From Alphaproteobacteria bacterium (lineage in GTDB: Bacteria; Pseudomonadota; Alphaproteobacteria; SMXP01): DNA of 64,000 nucleotides. Under the pieces are notes generated by a model. The model did not search any database. It was given only the letters and a program-made list of their open reading frames with translations, and was not told the origin of the DNA. Within the stretch, counting starts at the first letter, position 1. Each line of letters opens with the position of its first letter. Where the stretch lies: NCBI GenBank assembly GCA_028285305.1, contig JANQPV010000068.1, positions 1 through 64,000 of the forward strand. Reading direction: 5' to 3'. Both the position numbers and the translations under genes were made by a program. Positions 18,748-46,180 of this stretch are shown piece after piece.

Positions 18748-19194
18748 CTACCTCTCGCCCCGTTTGGTGGACCACTTGGACTTGAGGTCCAAGACGGATA
18801 GGCACGCTTCGGCCGCATCGGCGCCCTTGTTCTTTTGGTTGCGGGCAGCCCGGACCATAGCTTGATCTTGATCTTCCACTGTCAAGATACCGTAGCCGAT
18901 CGGAAGATGCCGGCTAACGGAAAGATCCATCAGCGCACGGGCACTTTCGCCGCAGACATAATCGTAATGGCTGGTCTCGCCGCGAACAACGCACCCGAGT
19001 GCGATATAACCGTCGAACTGGCCGCTCTGAGAGGCAAGGGAGATTGCGGCTGGAATCTCAAATGCTCCGGGCACGGAGACAACTTCGCTCGTTGCTCCGG
19101 CTGCCTCCAATTTGGCTTTGGCACCGGCCACCAGCTCGTCGGCAATGTCCGGATAAAACCGGGCCTCAACAATTAGGATGTGGGCGTCGGACAC
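18748..19194 (-). CDS. ribH: 6,7-dimethyl-8-ribityllumazine synthase
   Basis: A 148-residue lumazine synthase that condenses 5-amino-6-ribitylaminouracil with dihydroxybutanone phosphate in riboflavin synthesis. It shows the RFYPDI substrate segment, VPGAFEIPAAI, the ALGCVVRGETSHYDYVC motif with the catalytic His, and GYGILTVEDQDQA. The start is GTG at 19194. It follows ribBA by 8 bp and is directly followed by nusB with no gap, in the standard alphaproteobacterial order. Confidence 0.96.
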   Translation of the reverse strand: MSDAHILIVEARFYPDIADELVAGAKAKLEAAGATSEVVSVPGAFEIPAAISLASQSGQFDGYIALGCVVRGETSHYDYVCGESARALMDLSVSRHLPIGYGILTVEDQDQAMVRAARNQKNKGADAAEACLSVLDLKSKWSTKRGER

Positions 19195-19202
19195 GGGCAG
19201 AC

Positions 19203-20360
19203 CTAGTTTTCGGCGATGTGCCCGGCGACGGGGATGGCCCGTTGCCCGACAACCGTTAGGCCATAACCCTCCAAGCCGACAATTGTCCGGCTCGGCGAGT
19301 TCGATAGAAGTACCATGTTGCGAATACCTAAATCGCGAACAATTTGTGCTCCCACACCATACTCGCGCAATTCGGTGTCGGGTGCTCCCTCTCCGTCTTC
19401 GGCGGCAAAGCGTGCACTCACTGCCGTCGGATTGAAGTCACGGATGATGACCACGGCGCCTTTGCCGGCTTCATTGATCATCCGCATGGATTGGGCGATC
19501 GTGTTGCTGGTCTTGCCGTTGAAGGCCAGGAAATCGTCCAAGAGATTGACGGCATGCATCCGCACCATGACCGGCTCATCCTCCGTGAACGTTCCTTTCA
19601 CGAGAGCGATATGCTCTGACCCTTGAATTACGTTGTCATAGACTATGATGCGGAAGCCTTCGCCAAAGGCGGTCGGGAATTCCCGGGCCAGCTTCCGTGA
19701 GACCAAATTGTCATGCTTGATGCGATAGGCGATCAGATCGGCGATGGTGGCGATCTTCAGCCCATGGAACTGAGCGAATTTTACTAAATCGTCCGCGCGC
19801 GCCATGGTGCCGTCGTCATTCATGATCTCGCAAATGACACCGGCTGGATAAAGTCCGGCGAGGCGGGAGATATCGACCGCGGCTTCCGTGTGGCCGGTGC
19901 GCACAAGAACGCCGCCCTCTTGCGCCATTAAGGGAAAGACATGACCAGGCGAAACGATGTCGCGGGCGTGCTTGGTCGGATCTATGGCGACGGAGATCGT
20001 GCGGGCCCGATCCGCAGCGGAGATGCCCGTCGAAATGCCCTCCCGCGCCTCGATCGAAACCGTGAACGCGGTATGATTGCGCGACTCGTTCTTGGCCGCC
20101 ATCAAAGGCAAATTCAGTTCATTCACCCGATTTTGGGTTAGGGCCAAACAAATGAGGCCGCGCCCAAAGCGGGCCATGAAATTGACCGCGTCCGGGGTTG
20201 CCATTTGCGCAGGAATGACAAGATCGCCCTCGTTCTCGCGGTCTTCGGCATCGACGAGGACAAACATGCGCCCATTTCGAGCATCTTCGAGAATCTCTTC
20301 AATGGGCGAGACGAATTCGCCGAAATAGGCGCCTCTTGTTTGTTGGGTATCCGCCGACAT
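19203..20360 (-). CDS. ribB: DHBP synthase with degenerate GTP cyclohydrolase II domain (RibBX-type)
   Basis: A 385-residue two-domain protein. The N-terminal half is an intact 3,4-dihydroxy-2-butanone 4-phosphate synthase: [33 protein letters not shown] and [10 protein letters not shown] are all present. The C-terminal half aligns with GTP cyclohydrolase II, but the zinc-binding segment C-x2-GD-x8-C-x-C is replaced by [15 protein letters not shown] and the catalytic RQEGRxIGL by [11 protein letters not shown] cyclohydrolase activity from this protein is therefore unlikely. The ATG at 20360 has an AAGGA site; a TTG at 20381 overlapping the ribE stop is the alternative. Operon with ribE and ribH. 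Confidence 0.93.
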
Positions 20361-20377
20361 GGCTTCTCGTCCTTCGC

Positions 20378-21007
20378 TCAATTTTCGGGCTTTTGTGCCC
20401 CTGTATAGCGCGCTTCTTGGAGCCGAGCCACATAACGCGCCAACATGTCTATCTCAATGTTAACCTTATCACCCTCGCCGGCACCGCCAAGAGTGGTAAT
20501 CGCCTGTGTGTGCGGGATAATGTTGACTTCAAAGCCCCGATCCGTCGTTCGGTTCACAGTCAAGGAGATTCCATCGACAGCAACCGATCCCTTTTCCGCG
20601 ACAAACGGCAACAAATTGTCGGGAATTTCGAAGACAAACCGCTTTGAATCCCCAATTCCCTCGATCTCCGCGATGATTCCGATCCCATCAACGTGGCCGC
20701 TGACGATGTGCCCCCCCATTTCATCGCCAGCCCGCAGAGAGCGTTCCAGGTTTAGTCTTGCACCTGGTGCCTGATTTCCATCCAACAACCGGCTCAAGGT
20801 GGAGCGGTCCAAGGATTCCTCGGAAACGTTCACCGCGAACCACCCCGGGCCTTTTTCCACAACCGTCAAACAAACCCCCGAACACGAGATGGATGCGCCC
20901 ATATCGATGCCCTCCACATCGTAGGACGTATCAATCGAAAGCCGCACATCTCCGCGGCGCTCGACGCTGCGCACTGTGCCGATATCTGTAATAATGCCGG
21001 TAAACAT
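20378..21007 (-). CDS. ribE: Riboflavin synthase, alpha subunit
   Basis: A 209-residue lumazine-dismutating enzyme built of two similar barrel repeats. The first repeat begins MFTGIITDIGTV and contains GASISCSGVCLTVVE; the second contains GGHIVSGHVDGIG and VAVDGISLTVN, each with the expected residues. It converts two molecules of 6,7-dimethyl-8-ribityllumazine to riboflavin. It lies 3 bp after ribD and 17 bp before the ribBA start. In E. coli nomenclature this gene is ribC. Confidence 0.96.
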   Translation of the reverse strand: MFTGIITDIGTVRSVERRGDVRLSIDTSYDVEGIDMGASISCSGVCLTVVEKGPGWFAVNVSEESLDRSTLSRLLDGNQAPGARLNLERSLRAGDEMGGHIVSGHVDGIGIIAEIEGIGDSKRFVFEIPDNLLPFVAEKGSVAVDGISLTVNRTTDRGFEVNIIPHTQAITTLGGAGEGDKVNIEIDMLARYVARLQEARYTGAQKPEN

Positions 21008-21010
21008 GTC

Positions 21011-22105
21011 CTATCTCACATCGTATTCGACGGCGATGTCGTCATCAAAACGATACGTACGCCGATGTGCAAGGGACACAATGTCCTTCATTTTTTCAAA
21101 ACCCATTGGTGCAAGAGCCGCTTTGCCATCTCCGCCAATGATTTTGGGCCCTTGGACCCAAAAAACACGATCGATAAGCCCGCGTCGCATCAGGGTTGCA
21201 GCAAGCGCAGCCCCTCCCTCGACGAACAGATCCGCAATCCCCGAGCCGGCGAGTGCGGTCAAAGCTGCCTCCATGTCCAAAAGATTTTCGAACCCTGGCT
21301 CTTTTGCGTAGCCAACTTCGAGGACCGACACACCACTGGCCTCTAATGCCCGTTCTCGGTCTTTGTCTCGTTCAGGGCCCACGATAAAAAGTGTCGGCGC
21401 CGCCTTCGCCGTGGCGATCACGTTGTGAGTGAGCGGCGTGCGGATTCGGCTGTCAACGACAATTCTCAGCGGCGAACACGCTTCAAGACCTTCGAGGCGA
21501 CAAGTGAGATCGGGATTGTCCGCGACCGCCGTGTTGGATCCAACCATGATCGCATCCGCTTCTGCCCGGAGCAGATGGACGAAACGTCTTGCTTGATTGC
21601 CTGTGATCCATTTGCTTTCTCCGCTTTTCGTTGCGATGCGTCCGTCAACGGATGATGCCAATTTGAGGGTTACAAATGGCCTACCCGTTCTTCTTACGTG
21701 ATCGTGAGCGGCCAGAACTTTGCGGCTATGGTCTCTTCCCCGCCCGACATCAACCTCGATGCCGGCTTTTTGGAGCTCTTCAATTCCTTTTCCTCCCCAA
21801 CGCTCAGTGGCGGACTCTTGACCCATGACGATGCGTGCAGGAGAAAAGGCAACAATCTCGTCGACTTCATCCGCATACGGTTCACGAGCAAAGTAGAGTA
21901 CCGAGGACGCCCCCTCATGCGCCACATCGTTTCCAGAAACCGCCCTGGTCATTGCTGACTTTCCATCGCCATTCCAACCGCGTGCGACGATCCGGCTGCC
22001 ATCCTCTTTCACGATAACGCAGCCTTGAGGTTCGTCGCCCAACGGCCGCGGTGCGCAGCGGCGCGCCAGTCGCACCGCCAATTCAATGTAGTGGTGGTCA
22101 TCCAT
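21011..22105 (-). CDS. ribD: RibD-type protein: intact reductase domain, degenerate deaminase domain
   Basis: A 364-residue protein in the riboflavin operon. The C-terminal part (from about residue 142) is a normal 5-amino-6-(5-phosphoribosylamino)uracil reductase with KLASSVDGRIA, GESKWITG, the AR-x3-HLLRAEADAI segment and FVEGG. The N-terminal part aligns with the deaminase domain (GCVIVKEDG is kept), but the zinc site is lost: the HAE motif region reads MTRAVSGND and the EPCSH...PPC segment reads REPYADEVDE. No Cys or His ligand set remains, so deamination must be done by another protein. The gene starts 11 bp after nrdR on the same strand. Confidence 0.92.
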   Translation of the reverse strand: MDDHHYIELAVRLARRCAPRPLGDEPQGCVIVKEDGSRIVARGWNGDGKSAMTRAVSGNDVAHEGASSVLYFAREPYADEVDEIVAFSPARIVMGQESATERWGGKGIEELQKAGIEVDVGRGRDHSRKVLAAHDHVRRTGRPFVTLKLASSVDGRIATKSGESKWITGNQARRFVHLLRAEADAIMVGSNTAVADNPDLTCRLEGLEACSPLRIVVDSRIRTPLTHNVIATAKAAPTLFIVGPERDKDRERALEASGVSVLEVGYAKEPGFENLLDMEAALTALAGSGIADLFVEGGAALAATLMRRGLIDRVFWVQGPKIIGGDGKAALAPMGFEKMKDIVSLAHRRTYRFDDDIAVEYDVR

Positions 22106-22116
22106 TGAGGGGCGGC

Positions 22117-22584
22117 CTACTCTGCCGGCGAATTCACTTCGGTGATATCGTCCAGAAACTCTTCAAAATCTCGCGCTTCCCGGAAATTTTTATAGACCGA
22201 GGCGTAGCGAACATAGGCGACCGTATCGAGAGACGCGAGCCCCTCCATCACCAGTTCACCGATAACCTTGGATGGGATTTCCGTTTCGCCCATACTTTCC
22301 AAACGGCGAACAAGGCCAGACACCATTCGCTCAGTGCGCTCCGGATCGACCGGACGCTTGCGCAGGGCAATTTGAACGGAACGCATTAACTTGTCTCTGT
22401 CAAAGACGACCCTGCGATTGTTGGATTTGACAACGGTCAGCTCGCGCAATTGAACCCGTTCAAATGTCGTGAAACGCGCCCCGCAGGCTGAACAAGAGCG
22501 GCGCCGGCGAATGGCCGCGCCATCTTCGGCCGGCCTTGAATCCCTTACCTGGGTATCGTCATTATTGCAAAAGGGACAGCGCAT
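22117..22584 (-). CDS. nrdR: Transcriptional repressor NrdR
   Basis: A 155-residue repressor of ribonucleotide reductase genes. The N-terminal zinc ribbon has CPFC (Cys3, Cys6) and CSACG (Cys31, Cys34), followed by ARFTTFERV and an ATP-cone domain with [19 protein letters not shown]. Length and motifs are standard. It lies between glyA (18 bp) and ribD (11 bp) on the same strand, the usual alphaproteobacterial order. Confidence 0.97.
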
Positions 22585-28759: not shown

Positions 28760-30289
28760 CTATTTCAGTGTGCGCTCTTTATCGATGTTGCAGATGTCGG
28801 ACTTTGACATTCTGCAATTGTGATCAGCGATAAATGCCTTCAACCAGTCTGCGAACGCTTCGTTCTCAGGCTCGCGTCTTCCATCCTCACGAGGCTTGAC
28901 CGAAAGCCAACCGTGACCCGTCAAGACATCCTTTTCGGCGCGAACAAACAGGAACGGTGTTGGCTTAGGTACCGGGGTATATTTGTCTTCTTGAGGGCTC
29001 TTTGGACGCGGAGCCGTAGCAACACCTTTAACAATACAGACGCCATTATGATCATTATCACACCAATCGTCATACCAATATTCCATATTCACATCTTCAA
29101 AAGATACGCTGCACTTGTGCGGAGCACGACATAGGCGATGCGTATCAAATTCTTTTAGGAAGCCCACCGGTCTGCGGATCGCCTTCTGCCAGCGCAAAGC
29201 GGCCACTTGTCCCAAAGGGAAAAATGTTCTGTTCGCCCAATCGTCTTTCGAGGTGACCACAACCATGAGAGGAGGCTGCTCCTTTTGAAACCAATTCTCA
29301 TAGCGAAAGGCATCTACCGATTTGTACAAAGAGGCTTCGAAAGCTGGATTTATTAAGAACACTAGGTCCTTGTTCCGATCAAGATACTCATAGGAGTCGA
29401 TTAAGAACTCGTCCCTCTTGTTTTTGTCCGCGTCTACGTAAGCATCTTGAACTTCATGAATGAGTCTATCTTCGACTACATTGTACAGAATCCGTGCGCC
29501 ATAGCTATGACCGAGATAAACAATTTGATCCTCATCCCTTCTAATGTTTTCCAGAGCACCGAAGAGCCGAGGCAAGTTCCCAGAACGTGAAATTCGGTCA
29601 GCTGCCCCTCCCCGGTTCCAAAATGACAGATGGTCGATGATTGGAATTTGAGTTCCGCCCTTCCAACTGATGAAAACTCCGATTACATTTTTCTTCTCGC
29701 CTGGGGACTTTGTTCTGAGTGTAGCTTCTTCCTGCAGATTATTGATAAACCTTGAAAAACCAGCGTAGTCTTGACCCATGGGATCCCTGGAATCAATTTC
29801 GTCGGCGGCGAATGCCGCATGGCCAGTTGGATAGGAAGTATCTGAGAAATTATAGAAAGTCTTGCCCTTAGGCCCCGAGTGAATTCGCCAACCATGAACG
29901 TAGACTACGATCAAGTTCGACGCCCCATCTTGATGGTTTTGGGCCGCATACAATGCCGCCGCATAGTCACATCTGTTCACCAACTCACCGCTGTCACTAT
30001 ATCGAACGATGATGGGTTTGTTCGGTCCGTCTGATCTATACGCCTTTGGTAAATCCCAATAATTCGTCTCTTGATCTAAACTATCTTTGTACTCCCTTAC
30101 TTTGGATCGTTGCTTTCGAAACTGACCATTTGAGTTTTTTTCAATATAGTCCAGGAACTTCCCGCAATCGCTCACTTGCTCCTGCGGCGCCTCATACGCG
30201 GTAATACATCCGCTCAGGTACAATCCGATACAAAGCACAAATAAAAGTTTGCTCGGCAAACGGCCGATTTGGAAACGTGTCCGGCTCAT
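28760..30289 (-). CDS. Lipoprotein with alpha/beta hydrolase domain
   Basis: A 509-residue predicted lipoprotein. The signal sequence (about residues 15-28) ends in the lipobox LSGC. The body resembles an alpha/beta hydrolase: a strand LIVVYVHGW near residue 130, then the nucleophile elbow IVYLGHSYGAR with Ser, and a later strand VFLINPAFEAS. The C-terminal third is cysteine-containing and not recognised. The ATG at 30289 has GAGGGAAAA upstream and is preferred over an in-frame start 21 bases earlier. The gene is clearly more AT-rich than its neighbours and stands alone, which suggests horizontal acquisition. Substrate unknown; a surface esterase or lipase is possible. Confidence 0.75.
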   Translation of the reverse strand: MSRTRFQIGRLPSKLLFVLCIGLYLSGCITAYEAPQEQVSDCGKFLDYIEKNSNGQFRKQRSKVREYKDSLDQETNYWDLPKAYRSDGPNKPIIVRYSDSGELVNRCDYAAALYAAQNHQDGASNLIVVYVHGWRIHSGPKGKTFYNFSDTSYPTGHAAFAADEIDSRDPMGQDYAGFSRFINNLQEEATLRTKSPGEKKNVIGVFISWKGGTQIPIIDHLSFWNRGGAADRISRSGNLPRLFGALENIRRDEDQIVYLGHSYGARILYNVVEDRLIHEVQDAYVDADKNKRDEFLIDSYEYLDRNKDLVFLINPAFEASLYKSVDAFRYENWFQKEQPPLMVVVTSKDDWANRTFFPLGQVAALRWQKAIRRPVGFLKEFDTHRLCRAPHKCSVSFEDVNMEYWYDDWCDNDHNGVCIVKGVATAPRPKSPQEDKYTPVPKPTPFLFVRAEKDVLTGHGWLSVKPREDGRREPENEAFADWLKAFIADHNCRMSKSDICNIDKERTLK

Positions 30290-30625
30290 GATTTTCCCTC
30301 CTCTTACCATCTCAAGGAACCAACAGTCCGCTTGACGGAGACCATTGTGAAGTGTCGGCCATCACGAATCAACACCTAGTTGATCCTCATCTTTCAAACA
30401 ACTTTAGATATAGAAGGGGGAGTTGAGCCAGCTTTCTCTACTCAAAGTAGCTTTATGTTATTTTGATCTACCTATAGTTGCAGATCCGCCGAGACCGAAA
30501 AGGGATTTCACCAGAAGTTGCGAACGGATTGTTTTTGTCACGGTGGTCTGATCAAGCCAAATCGAGACGATGGCTACCGGACTGTCTGGCTCTTGTATAA
30601 GTCAGTCTGTTGGAGCCAGTTAGCG
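30290..30625. other. Intergenic region without a recognised gene
   Basis: A 336-bp AT-rich stretch upstream of the lipoprotein gene, which should contain its promoter. I see no convincing small gene, RNA gene or strong hairpin here. Confidence 0.5.
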
Positions 30626-44453: not shown

Positions 44454-45332
44454 ATGACCAACCTTGGCTTCGGAGTGAGTGCCGGAGCCAAGGCCACCCT
44501 CTCCGCGCTTCGAGCAAAACTCAGACACATACTGGAAAGCCCCTATGCTGCGGGCTTTATCACCAGTGTAATTCTCATAAATGCCGTTGTTCTGGGGCTT
44601 GAAACCTGGCCTGCGGCGATGAACGCTGCCGGACCCGCTCTGCTGCTTGCCGACCAAATCGCCCTGTCGATATTCGTGGTCGAGCTCACTTTGAAAATAT
44701 TTGCTTTTGGTCCCGGTTTCTTTCGAAAGGGTTGGAACCTTTTTGATTTTGCTCTGGTGAGTTTGGCACTCCTGCCGGCAACGCATTCTTTCTCGGCTCT
44801 GCGGGCATTGAGAATCCTGCGCGCCTTCCGGCTTATTTCAACCATTCCGCAACTTCGGCGGGTCGTTGAATCACTCCTGTCGGCTCTGCCTGGGATGGGC
44901 GCGGTCATGGTCCTTCTCGCTCTCGTATTTTACGTCTCTGCGGTTTTGGCAACGAAGATGTTCGCAGCGGAGTTTCCGGAATGGTTCGGATCCATTGGCG
45001 CCTCACTCTACTCTCTCTTCCAGATCATGACGCTTGAGAGCTGGTCCATGGGGATCGTCCGGCCGGTCATGCAAGAATACCCCTGGGCCTGGGCGTTCTT
45101 TGTACCCTTTATTGTCGTGACAAGTCTCACCGTACTGAACTTATTCATCGCACTGATCGTAAGCGCATTACAAGAACAGGATACAAGCCGATCCGTGCCG
45201 CACGAGAATGCGGGACGCGAAGACGGCCTAAAGCAAGACATTGAGGCGCTCTCAGTGAAGGTGAGCGAACTGCAAGAAGAAATCGCGAAAATGCGTCTTC
45301 AGCTTGACGGCTCTGGATCGGGTACATCATGA
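44454..45332 (+). CDS. Bacterial voltage-gated sodium channel (NaChBac/NavMs type)
   Basis: A 292-residue single-domain six-helix ion channel. S4 is near residues 113-137 with regularly spaced Arg (ALRALRILRAFRLIS), the selectivity filter TLESWSM is at residues 193-199, S6 is about 215-240 and a C-terminal coiled coil spans about 259-285 (ALSVKVSELQEEIAKMRL). The filter TLESW defines Na+-selective bacterial channels that assemble as homotetramers. It is the middle gene of an operon with a 46-residue membrane peptide and an unknown multi-pass protein that overlaps its stop by four bases. Confidence 0.94.
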   Translation: MTNLGFGVSAGAKATLSALRAKLRHILESPYAAGFITSVILINAVVLGLETWPAAMNAAGPALLLADQIALSIFVVELTLKIFAFGPGFFRKGWNLFDFALVSLALLPATHSFSALRALRILRAFRLISTIPQLRRVVESLLSALPGMGAVMVLLALVFYVSAVLATKMFAAEFPEWFGSIGASLYSLFQIMTLESWSMGIVRPVMQEYPWAWAFFVPFIVVTSLTVLNLFIALIVSALQEQDTSRSVPHENAGREDGLKQDIEALSVKVSELQEEIAKMRLQLDGSGSGTS

Positions 45333-46180
45333 ATTCGGACACTTCAACACTGACACATTCCACTGGATCTTCTTGGCACAGTGTCCTGGCGAGATTGTTT
45401 CCAAAAAGCGTTCAAGCCCTTGAGGACCGAAAGAACTATGCAGTAACGGATCGCGGTTCGGTCGAAAAATCAACTGAAACGGGAAACTGGGAGCTACAGT
45501 TCTATCCGCGCACGGACGCTCCGAATGTTGAAACAATTGCTTTGGACGAGCTGCGTACGGGCCGTTCTCCCAATGACAATGCCCTGAAAATTTGGGTAAC
45601 GATTATCTTACTGGTCCAAGCACTCTTGCCAGTGGCCTTGTTCTTTGCCGACGAAGTTTTCAGCGGGCTGGGTCTCGGTGCCCTTGTTTCCACCATTATG
45701 GAAACGGGCGTGTTGCCGGCGCTTATCATCTCGGCAAACATTTTTGTCTTTACGTCGCTGCGTGTGCTCTTCACTCGCATGGATGCGAACTGGTCAAATT
45801 CGATTCGCAGCTTTTTGGAAAACGACACCAAGAACAAGATGCAAGGTATCCGCGCATGTTTGTTGGAGTTTCGCCGGTTCGTGAAATGGCGGCGTTACAT
45901 GTCGTACCTGCAAGCCGGGGTGATCGCCTTGTTCATCATGCAAATCCCCATTCTCTTTCTTCTCCCGGCAGCGTTTGCCAACTCAGAATTCGGATGGACT
46001 TGGCACGAACTCGCCGCTGTTGCGGCCATGCTGTTCATTCAGGTGCCGAGCATTATCGCTTTCCTCTATCTGCGTTGGTTTTATACAGATGGACGGGATC
46101 CAACTGTTCAACTGTGCGTCATGCTCGCAGAAGAGCGGATCGACTATGTCGCCTTGCTGAGACGCGGTGCAAGAGATTAA
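45329..46180 (+). CDS. Unknown membrane protein encoded with the sodium channel
   Basis: A 283-residue protein with an 85-residue soluble N-terminus and about four to five membrane segments (86-106, 112-147, 193-216, 226-251), plus a basic cytosolic loop at about 150-192 (KMQGIRACLLEFRRFVKWRR). Its ATG overlaps the channel stop (ATGA), so translation is probably coupled. No family recognised. It may be an accessory subunit, a regulator or a partner in motility or osmoregulation; none of this is shown by sequence. Confidence 0.75.
   Translation: MNSDTSTLTHSTGSSWHSVLARLFPKSVQALEDRKNYAVTDRGSVEKSTETGNWELQFYPRTDAPNVETIALDELRTGRSPNDNALKIWVTIILLVQALLPVALFFADEVFSGLGLGALVSTIMETGVLPALIISANIFVFTSLRVLFTRMDANWSNSIRSFLENDTKNKMQGIRACLLEFRRFVKWRRYMSYLQAGVIALFIMQIPILFLLPAAFANSEFGWTWHELAAVAAMLFIQVPSIIAFLYLRWFYTDGRDPTVQLCVMLAEERIDYVALLRRGARD

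Follow-up and report, generated by a model that had tools for sequence, protein, structure and literature searches.

The operon copy of RibD in the 64,000-nucleotide stretch of DNA analyzed here (the window) has lost the zinc ligands and the catalytic Glu of its deaminase half and has kept an intact reductase half. In three other members of the same family, a second RibD-like protein at another locus presents the mirror image of this state. The best explanation, to which we give a probability of about 0.8, is a family-wide split of a duplicated ribD, in which the operon RibD would serve as a reductase only and a separate copy would serve as the deaminase. Such a division of labor between half-enzymes has so far been described in plants, and the sequences point here to its occurrence in a bacterial family. 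If the split is true, a plant-style pair of RibD copies, each of them half dead, arose in bacteria too.

The RibD-like gene of the rib operon

The gene lies within a rib operon, with ribE and RibBX adjoining downstream (Table 1). The frames beyond the RibB-type protein are presumably ribH, nusB and thiL. Elsewhere in the window, two open frames at 28760-30310 (516 aa) and 45329-46180 (283 aa) gave zero Pfam matches at E 1e-5.

Table 1. Coordinates of the RibD-like gene, its parts and its neighbors in the window
Feature	Position	Strand	Remark
RibD-like protein, PyrR-like by sequence (reductase intact, deaminase dead)	21011..22105	-	364 aa, ATG start
Degenerate deaminase half, residues 1-141	21683..22105	-	cytidine-deaminase fold predicted as kept
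Residues 50-53 (S-A-M-T), at the place of the HAE (zinc His and catalytic Glu) of intact RibDs	21947..21958	-	
Residues 75-81, counterpart of the PCxHxGKTPPC zinc loop; six residues shorter, no Cys	21863..21883	-	
Intact reductase half, residues 142-364	21011..21682	-	
ribE, riboflavin synthase; next operon gene after the RibD-like gene	20378..21007	-	
RibBX: DHBP synthase and GTP cyclohydrolase II-like half without zinc cysteines	19203..20381	-	
ribH (lumazine synthase)	18748..19194	-	label from position and sequence
nrdR, immediately upstream of the RibD-like gene	22117..22584	-	

Reference residues and motifs follow the A. baumannii RibD numbering (PMC3668577), and the columns were compared with those of 35 intact RibDs. 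His54, Glu56, Cys79, Cys88 and Asp106 of the deaminase half are invariant in all 35, and the same columns hold Met, Arg, Tyr, a gap and Ser in the window protein. In a phmmer alignment His54 is paired with Ser50 and not with Met52, thus with a residue other than His either way. Most of the deaminase substrate residues are gone as well, with Asp and Glu in the columns of Asn28 and Pro29, and the match to the Pfam model PF00383 is confined to residues 3-50 and reaches 17.9 bits, where 25 are needed to pass. The His-x-Glu and PCxHxG(R/K)TPPC motifs that mark a bifunctional RibD are missing from the N-terminal half, and neither HAE/HGE nor PC..C motifs occur in the six frames of the window RibD region. 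The C-terminal half carries a RibD_C domain (Pfam, 168 bits) with its active-site residues, all nine reductase residues being kept (K148, S164, W166, T168, R173, R180, D196, R203, E296). At the position of BsRibG Lys151, where a Rib7-type reductase would present a residue other than Lys, the window protein has Lys148. It is thus a full-length RibD homologue with a dead deaminase half and an intact reductase half, as in the PyrR type. An earlier note on this DNA had described a destroyed deaminase zinc site, an intact C-terminal reductase and a place within the rib operon, and these three observations are confirmed.

The two halves have similar GC contents at the three codon positions (0.69/0.47/0.56 in the dead one). 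This agreement, together with the absence of the motifs from all six frames, indicates that the window RibD contains no frameshift, and a sequencing error, which the earlier note had considered as an objection to its own reading, is excluded. The note had also considered that ligands could be retained elsewhere in the domain; within residues 1-141, Cys 17 and 29 and His 4, 5, 63, 126, 134 and 136 are all off the family ligand positions, which speaks against this. Judged from its sequence, the deaminase half is a degenerate domain within an open, gene-like frame. The shortened zinc loop is followed by a 'PAR' shared with one of 144 other deaminase loci, that of the family member G002.

When the window protein is compared with 28 class relatives, mean identity is 0.25 for the deaminase half, vs. 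0.62 for these relatives among themselves (378 pairs); for the reductase half the two values are 0.45 and 0.50. This gap in the deaminase half, compared with the reductase half, places the window protein beyond ordinary drift. In the tree of the deaminase half the window end branch is very long (about 10, a saturated value, for a median of 0.32), and in that of the reductase half it reaches 0.93 (median 0.43); bootstrap is unsettled in both trees, which contain long branches.

The N-terminal domain was also modeled, as had been proposed. AlphaFold2 with a 40-row alignment gave a pLDDT of 90.4. The whole chain superposed on B. subtilis RibG 2b3z (Z 38.2, rmsd 3.1, 349 aligned), and residues 1-141 superposed on yeast cytosine deaminase and TadA (Z ~17, rmsd 2.4-2.9), so that the deaminase fold is predicted as kept. 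As the alignment included intact homologues, the model is biased to the fold; it supports, and does not prove, a folded dead half. Also, RibD matches PDB 8dq9, 8dqb and 8dqc over the full structure, and 8dq9 by sequence as well; these entries are titled 3-dehydroquinate dehydratase I, and the titles look wrong.

Mirror-image partners in the family and census of the class

The family (f1) was represented by four genomes (G001, G002, G003, G004) besides that of the window (G000). With the window protein as query, 44 of 60 genomes gave a match. The rib operon of G001 encodes a 224-aa bare reductase before ribE and RibBX, and another locus of this genome encodes a 289-aa protein in which HAE and PCNHWGETPPC are intact and the reductase half is eroded. 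The same second protein, in the same neighborhood, is present in G003 (296 aa) and G004 (250 aa, truncated where the contig stops), where it was the only match to the window protein. A glycosyltransferase adjoins this partner gene in all three genomes and gpmA in G001 and G003, and in G004 gpmA would fall past the contig end; both neighbor names are labels that we assume. The partner thus occurs in three of the four family genomes, at one conserved locus, and forms one clade (100/98).

Two partners (L036 and L038) keep the His, the Glu and both Cys of the deaminase; their reductase half has lost the substrate Lys, Asp and Glu and presents a deletion of about 30 columns. Their identities to the 28 class relatives are 0.59 in the deaminase half and 0.23 in the reductase half for L036, and 0.55 and 0.25 for L038. 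The model of L038 (pLDDT 86.8) superposes on RibG 4g3m with both halves (Z 28.0, rmsd 3.4, 275 aligned).

The operon RibD of G002 has a degenerate deaminase half, the zinc loop of which, like that of the window protein, is short of six residues. Near residue 195 this gene (L037:4745-5856) breaks into two overlapping frames, through an assembly error, decay or perhaps a real split. No second protein was found in G002, a genome 77% complete; one of its contigs ends inside gpmA, so that the partner locus of this genome does lie in a gap. None of the family genomes was seen to combine a partner with a degenerate operon RibD of full length, and G001 pairs its partner with the bare reductase. The reductase tree, in which the three family operon rows fail to cluster when all rows are considered, does not show a single origin of the operon copies, and neither tree gave direct proof that both kinds of copy stem from one ancestral duplication.

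In the explanation that we favor, ribD would have been duplicated in the family ancestor, or a second ribD acquired, presumably in a single event. In the operon copy only the reductase would have survived, the deaminase having decayed in G000 and G002 and apparently been deleted in G001; in the copy beside gpmA, only the deaminase would have survived. The C-terminal half of the window protein would reduce the deaminated intermediate (AROPP to ARIPP), and its N-terminal half, deprived of deaminase catalysis, would persist as a folded segment without a catalytic function. Jointly, the two half-enzymes would make up one RibD, as plant PyrR and PyrD do. Since the window protein keeps Lys148, which is thought to select the deaminated substrate, the deaminase must act first, in the normal bacterial order. 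Mutation of the zinc ligands of RibD was reported to be without effect on its reductase activity (PMC3668577), and thus the mechanism poses no obstacle to a reductase that carries a dead deaminase half.

The census outside the family covered 29 loci from the window-protein search and 110 further loci in 109 genomes, the latter drawn from the best PF01872 matches listed (192 of 241 class genomes matched). Among the first 29, 28 were intact and one (G048) was cut by a contig end. The motif pattern was present in 98 of the 110 others, and four more were intact by eye (L125, L165, L198, L214); three were cut by contig ends (L113, L134, L194), three were bare reductases (L116, L117, L164), one was a paralogue without a deaminase half (L188), and one (L217, G221:C40) kept HAE with a zinc loop shortened to PCAHGC vs. 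PCxHxGKTPPC. Intact bifunctional RibDs therefore accounted for 130 of the 139 loci outside the family among the matches listed, and none of the 139 was a full-length RibD in the state of the window protein. Nor was this state seen among the 28 loci of named relatives, for those with a match spanning the zinc region, in a collection that may omit records close to the genome of the window. Among the matches listed, f1 is the only family in which an operon copy of full length was seen to retain its dead half.

The three bare reductases belong to families f65 and f138, and their genomes carry separate deaminases, in short frames for L239 (G069) and L245 (G169) and in a long frame for L241 (G248). 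On this sequence pattern, RibD splitting probably took place more than once in the class. The end of L239 resembles a short remnant of a reductase half. A profile of the partner (A2) matched 306 of 386 class genomes. Among the matches listed, near-full coverage of its 289 positions was limited to G003 and G194, and the other rows covered about positions 3-160. The match in G194 is a 410-aa frame, and the operon locus of this genome (L187) was counted as intact.

Deamination in the window's own genome and rival explanations

The earlier note had assigned deamination to another enzyme or, as an alternative, a new role to the domain, and had suggested a genome search for a separate RibD-type deaminase. 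The sequences support the first view, that another protein must carry out this step. Such a deaminase is encoded in G001, G003 and G004; in G000 none was found. In this genome (5.4 Mb in 77 contigs, 95% complete, about 5% missing), only one protein, on contig C27, passes the PF00383 cut-off, and we take it to be TadA. A search at E 5 added two sub-threshold rows, the window gene (20.3 bits) and C21:55933-56091 (17.2 bits), and the latter, which contains three stops and overlies other open frames, was judged to be noise. The partner-deaminase profile returned the window gene as its sole match in G000, and the gpmA/glycosyltransferase neighborhood is missing or unrecognizable in this genome. A second RibD_C match (C21:157169-157663, 70.8 bits, 189-aa open frame) is too short for a RibD. 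PF05165 (GTP cyclohydrolase III), detected in three archaeal controls, was not found in G000, and an archaeal-type start of the pathway was rejected on this ground.

These absences would also be expected if G000 had truly lost the partner and an unrelated enzyme carried out the deamination, which we regard as possible, though improbable. One absent contig bearing the gpmA locus would explain the lack of the partner, of gpmA and of the glycosyltransferase together, and the contig break inside gpmA in G002 gives a precedent for a gap at this locus. Their joint absence fits one missing contig, and it also fits a different genome layout. Nevertheless, because the neighborhood is absent along with the partner, we hold a gap in the assembly to be more probable than a novel deaminase, and we rank it first and a replaced deaminase second. 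That the RibD-type deaminase was replaced altogether by an enzyme unrelated to the cytidine-deaminase fold seems rather unlikely to us. If this were true, then, as GTP cyclohydrolase II is missing too, riboflavin synthesis would begin with two steps carried out by enzymes not yet identified. It is quite unlikely that other ligands still sustain catalysis in the deaminase half, or that this half has taken a new binding or regulatory role. The predicted fold and the normal codon-position bias agree with this idea, as does the Francisella RibD, whose deaminase half is reported to bind enolase (PMC12742849). However, the Cys and His of residues 1-141 are off the ligand positions, the deaminase half drifted far more than the reductase half, the operon copy of G001 has no deaminase half at all, and the structure model leans to the fold for the reason given above. 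Retention as a folded, non-catalytic part, as the model suggests, would be a simpler reading than a new role for the dead half.

It could also be proposed that riboflavin synthesis was abandoned for import of the vitamin and that the rib operon is decaying, with ribD going first. Both the deaminase and a canonical GTP cyclohydrolase II look absent at the head of the pathway, the operon RibBA-like protein, whose cyclohydrolase half lacks the zinc cysteines, being the only PF00925 match in G000. However, the open reading frames of the reductase half, ribE, RibBX and ribH are intact, and their codon-position bias is normal. Also, a sole PF00925 match without zinc motif is found in seven genomes of the class whose RibD is intact (G007, G011, G013, G018, G020, G038, G044; in G011 a zinc-motif pattern match elsewhere in the frame is spurious), and it is thus neither a sign of decay nor peculiar to G000. 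G001 has an additional RibA with an intact zinc motif. We consider a decaying operon very unlikely. As for an error of sequencing or assembly in a normal RibD, the genome is a draft, but no motif occurs in any frame, the substitutions are spread over 140 residues without a frameshift, and a related degenerate copy exists in G002; the chance of such an error is practically nil. The split of a duplicated ribD, with the partner of G000 probably lying in an assembly gap, is therefore the explanation that we retain.

Comparison with known enzymes

Bifunctional RibD/RibG enzymes of E. coli, B. subtilis and A. baumannii share with the window protein the two-domain layout, the place in the operon, the reductase residues and the predicted fold. 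They differ from it in having the zinc site and the catalytic Glu, and the window protein is not bifunctional by sequence. In most bacteria, deamination precedes reduction, and recognition of the deaminated substrate is believed to depend on the Lys found at the position of RibG Lys151; fungal and archaeal reductases act before deamination, and yeast Rib7 has Thr at this substrate-selecting position (PMC3631187). The window protein resembles Rib7 (fungal/archaeal) and Rib2 (fungal) in presenting, as it seems, one activity per protein, but unlike Rib7 it keeps the substrate-selecting Lys.

The closest layout is that of Arabidopsis, where RibD has two homologues of full length: in PyrD the reductase-like half is dead, and in PyrR the deaminase-like half (PMC9678776). 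Both cases present reciprocal half-dead RibD homologues with dead halves retained. However, the pair described here is found in a bacterial family, the reductase copy stays in the rib operon, that of G001 is without a dead half, and the dead half of the bacterial partner is shortened. We assume that the bacterial split is convergent with the plant pair, the two being compared by layout. In titles and abstract openings of the literature on RibD, split RibD, PyrR/PyrD, RibBX and alphaproteobacterial RibBA, no bacterial PyrR/PyrD-like pair was found. The family would present several stages of such a split, the operon copy having a decaying half in G000 and G002 and having lost it in G001, and the reciprocal copy standing at another locus in G001, G003 and G004. 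As one lineage (G001) seems to have dropped the dead domain, the family would offer a test of why plants keep theirs.

RibBX proteins, known from Shewanella and Aeromonas, are likewise bifunctional riboflavin enzymes with one half catalytically dead yet kept, and in Shewanella the dead half is reported to regulate the partner half (PMC10012899). RibBX is a different enzyme, and one such protein sits two genes downstream of the window RibD. For Sinorhizobium and Brucella, a formamidase (BrbF) and a still unknown GTP cyclohydrolase III were proposed to open the pathway, and the RibBX of the window, devoid of cyclohydrolase zinc cysteines, may be compared with the proposed BrbG (PMC9478397).

The NCBIfam model TIGR00326 gives 177.2 bits to the window protein, 184.7 to L036 and 181.8 to L038, for a cut-off of 156.35. 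Thus, half-dead proteins of both kinds pass, and this 'bifunctional RibD' model does not discriminate between them and a complete enzyme. Automatic annotation labels both halves as bifunctional, and pathway reconstructions can consequently miss the lost step.
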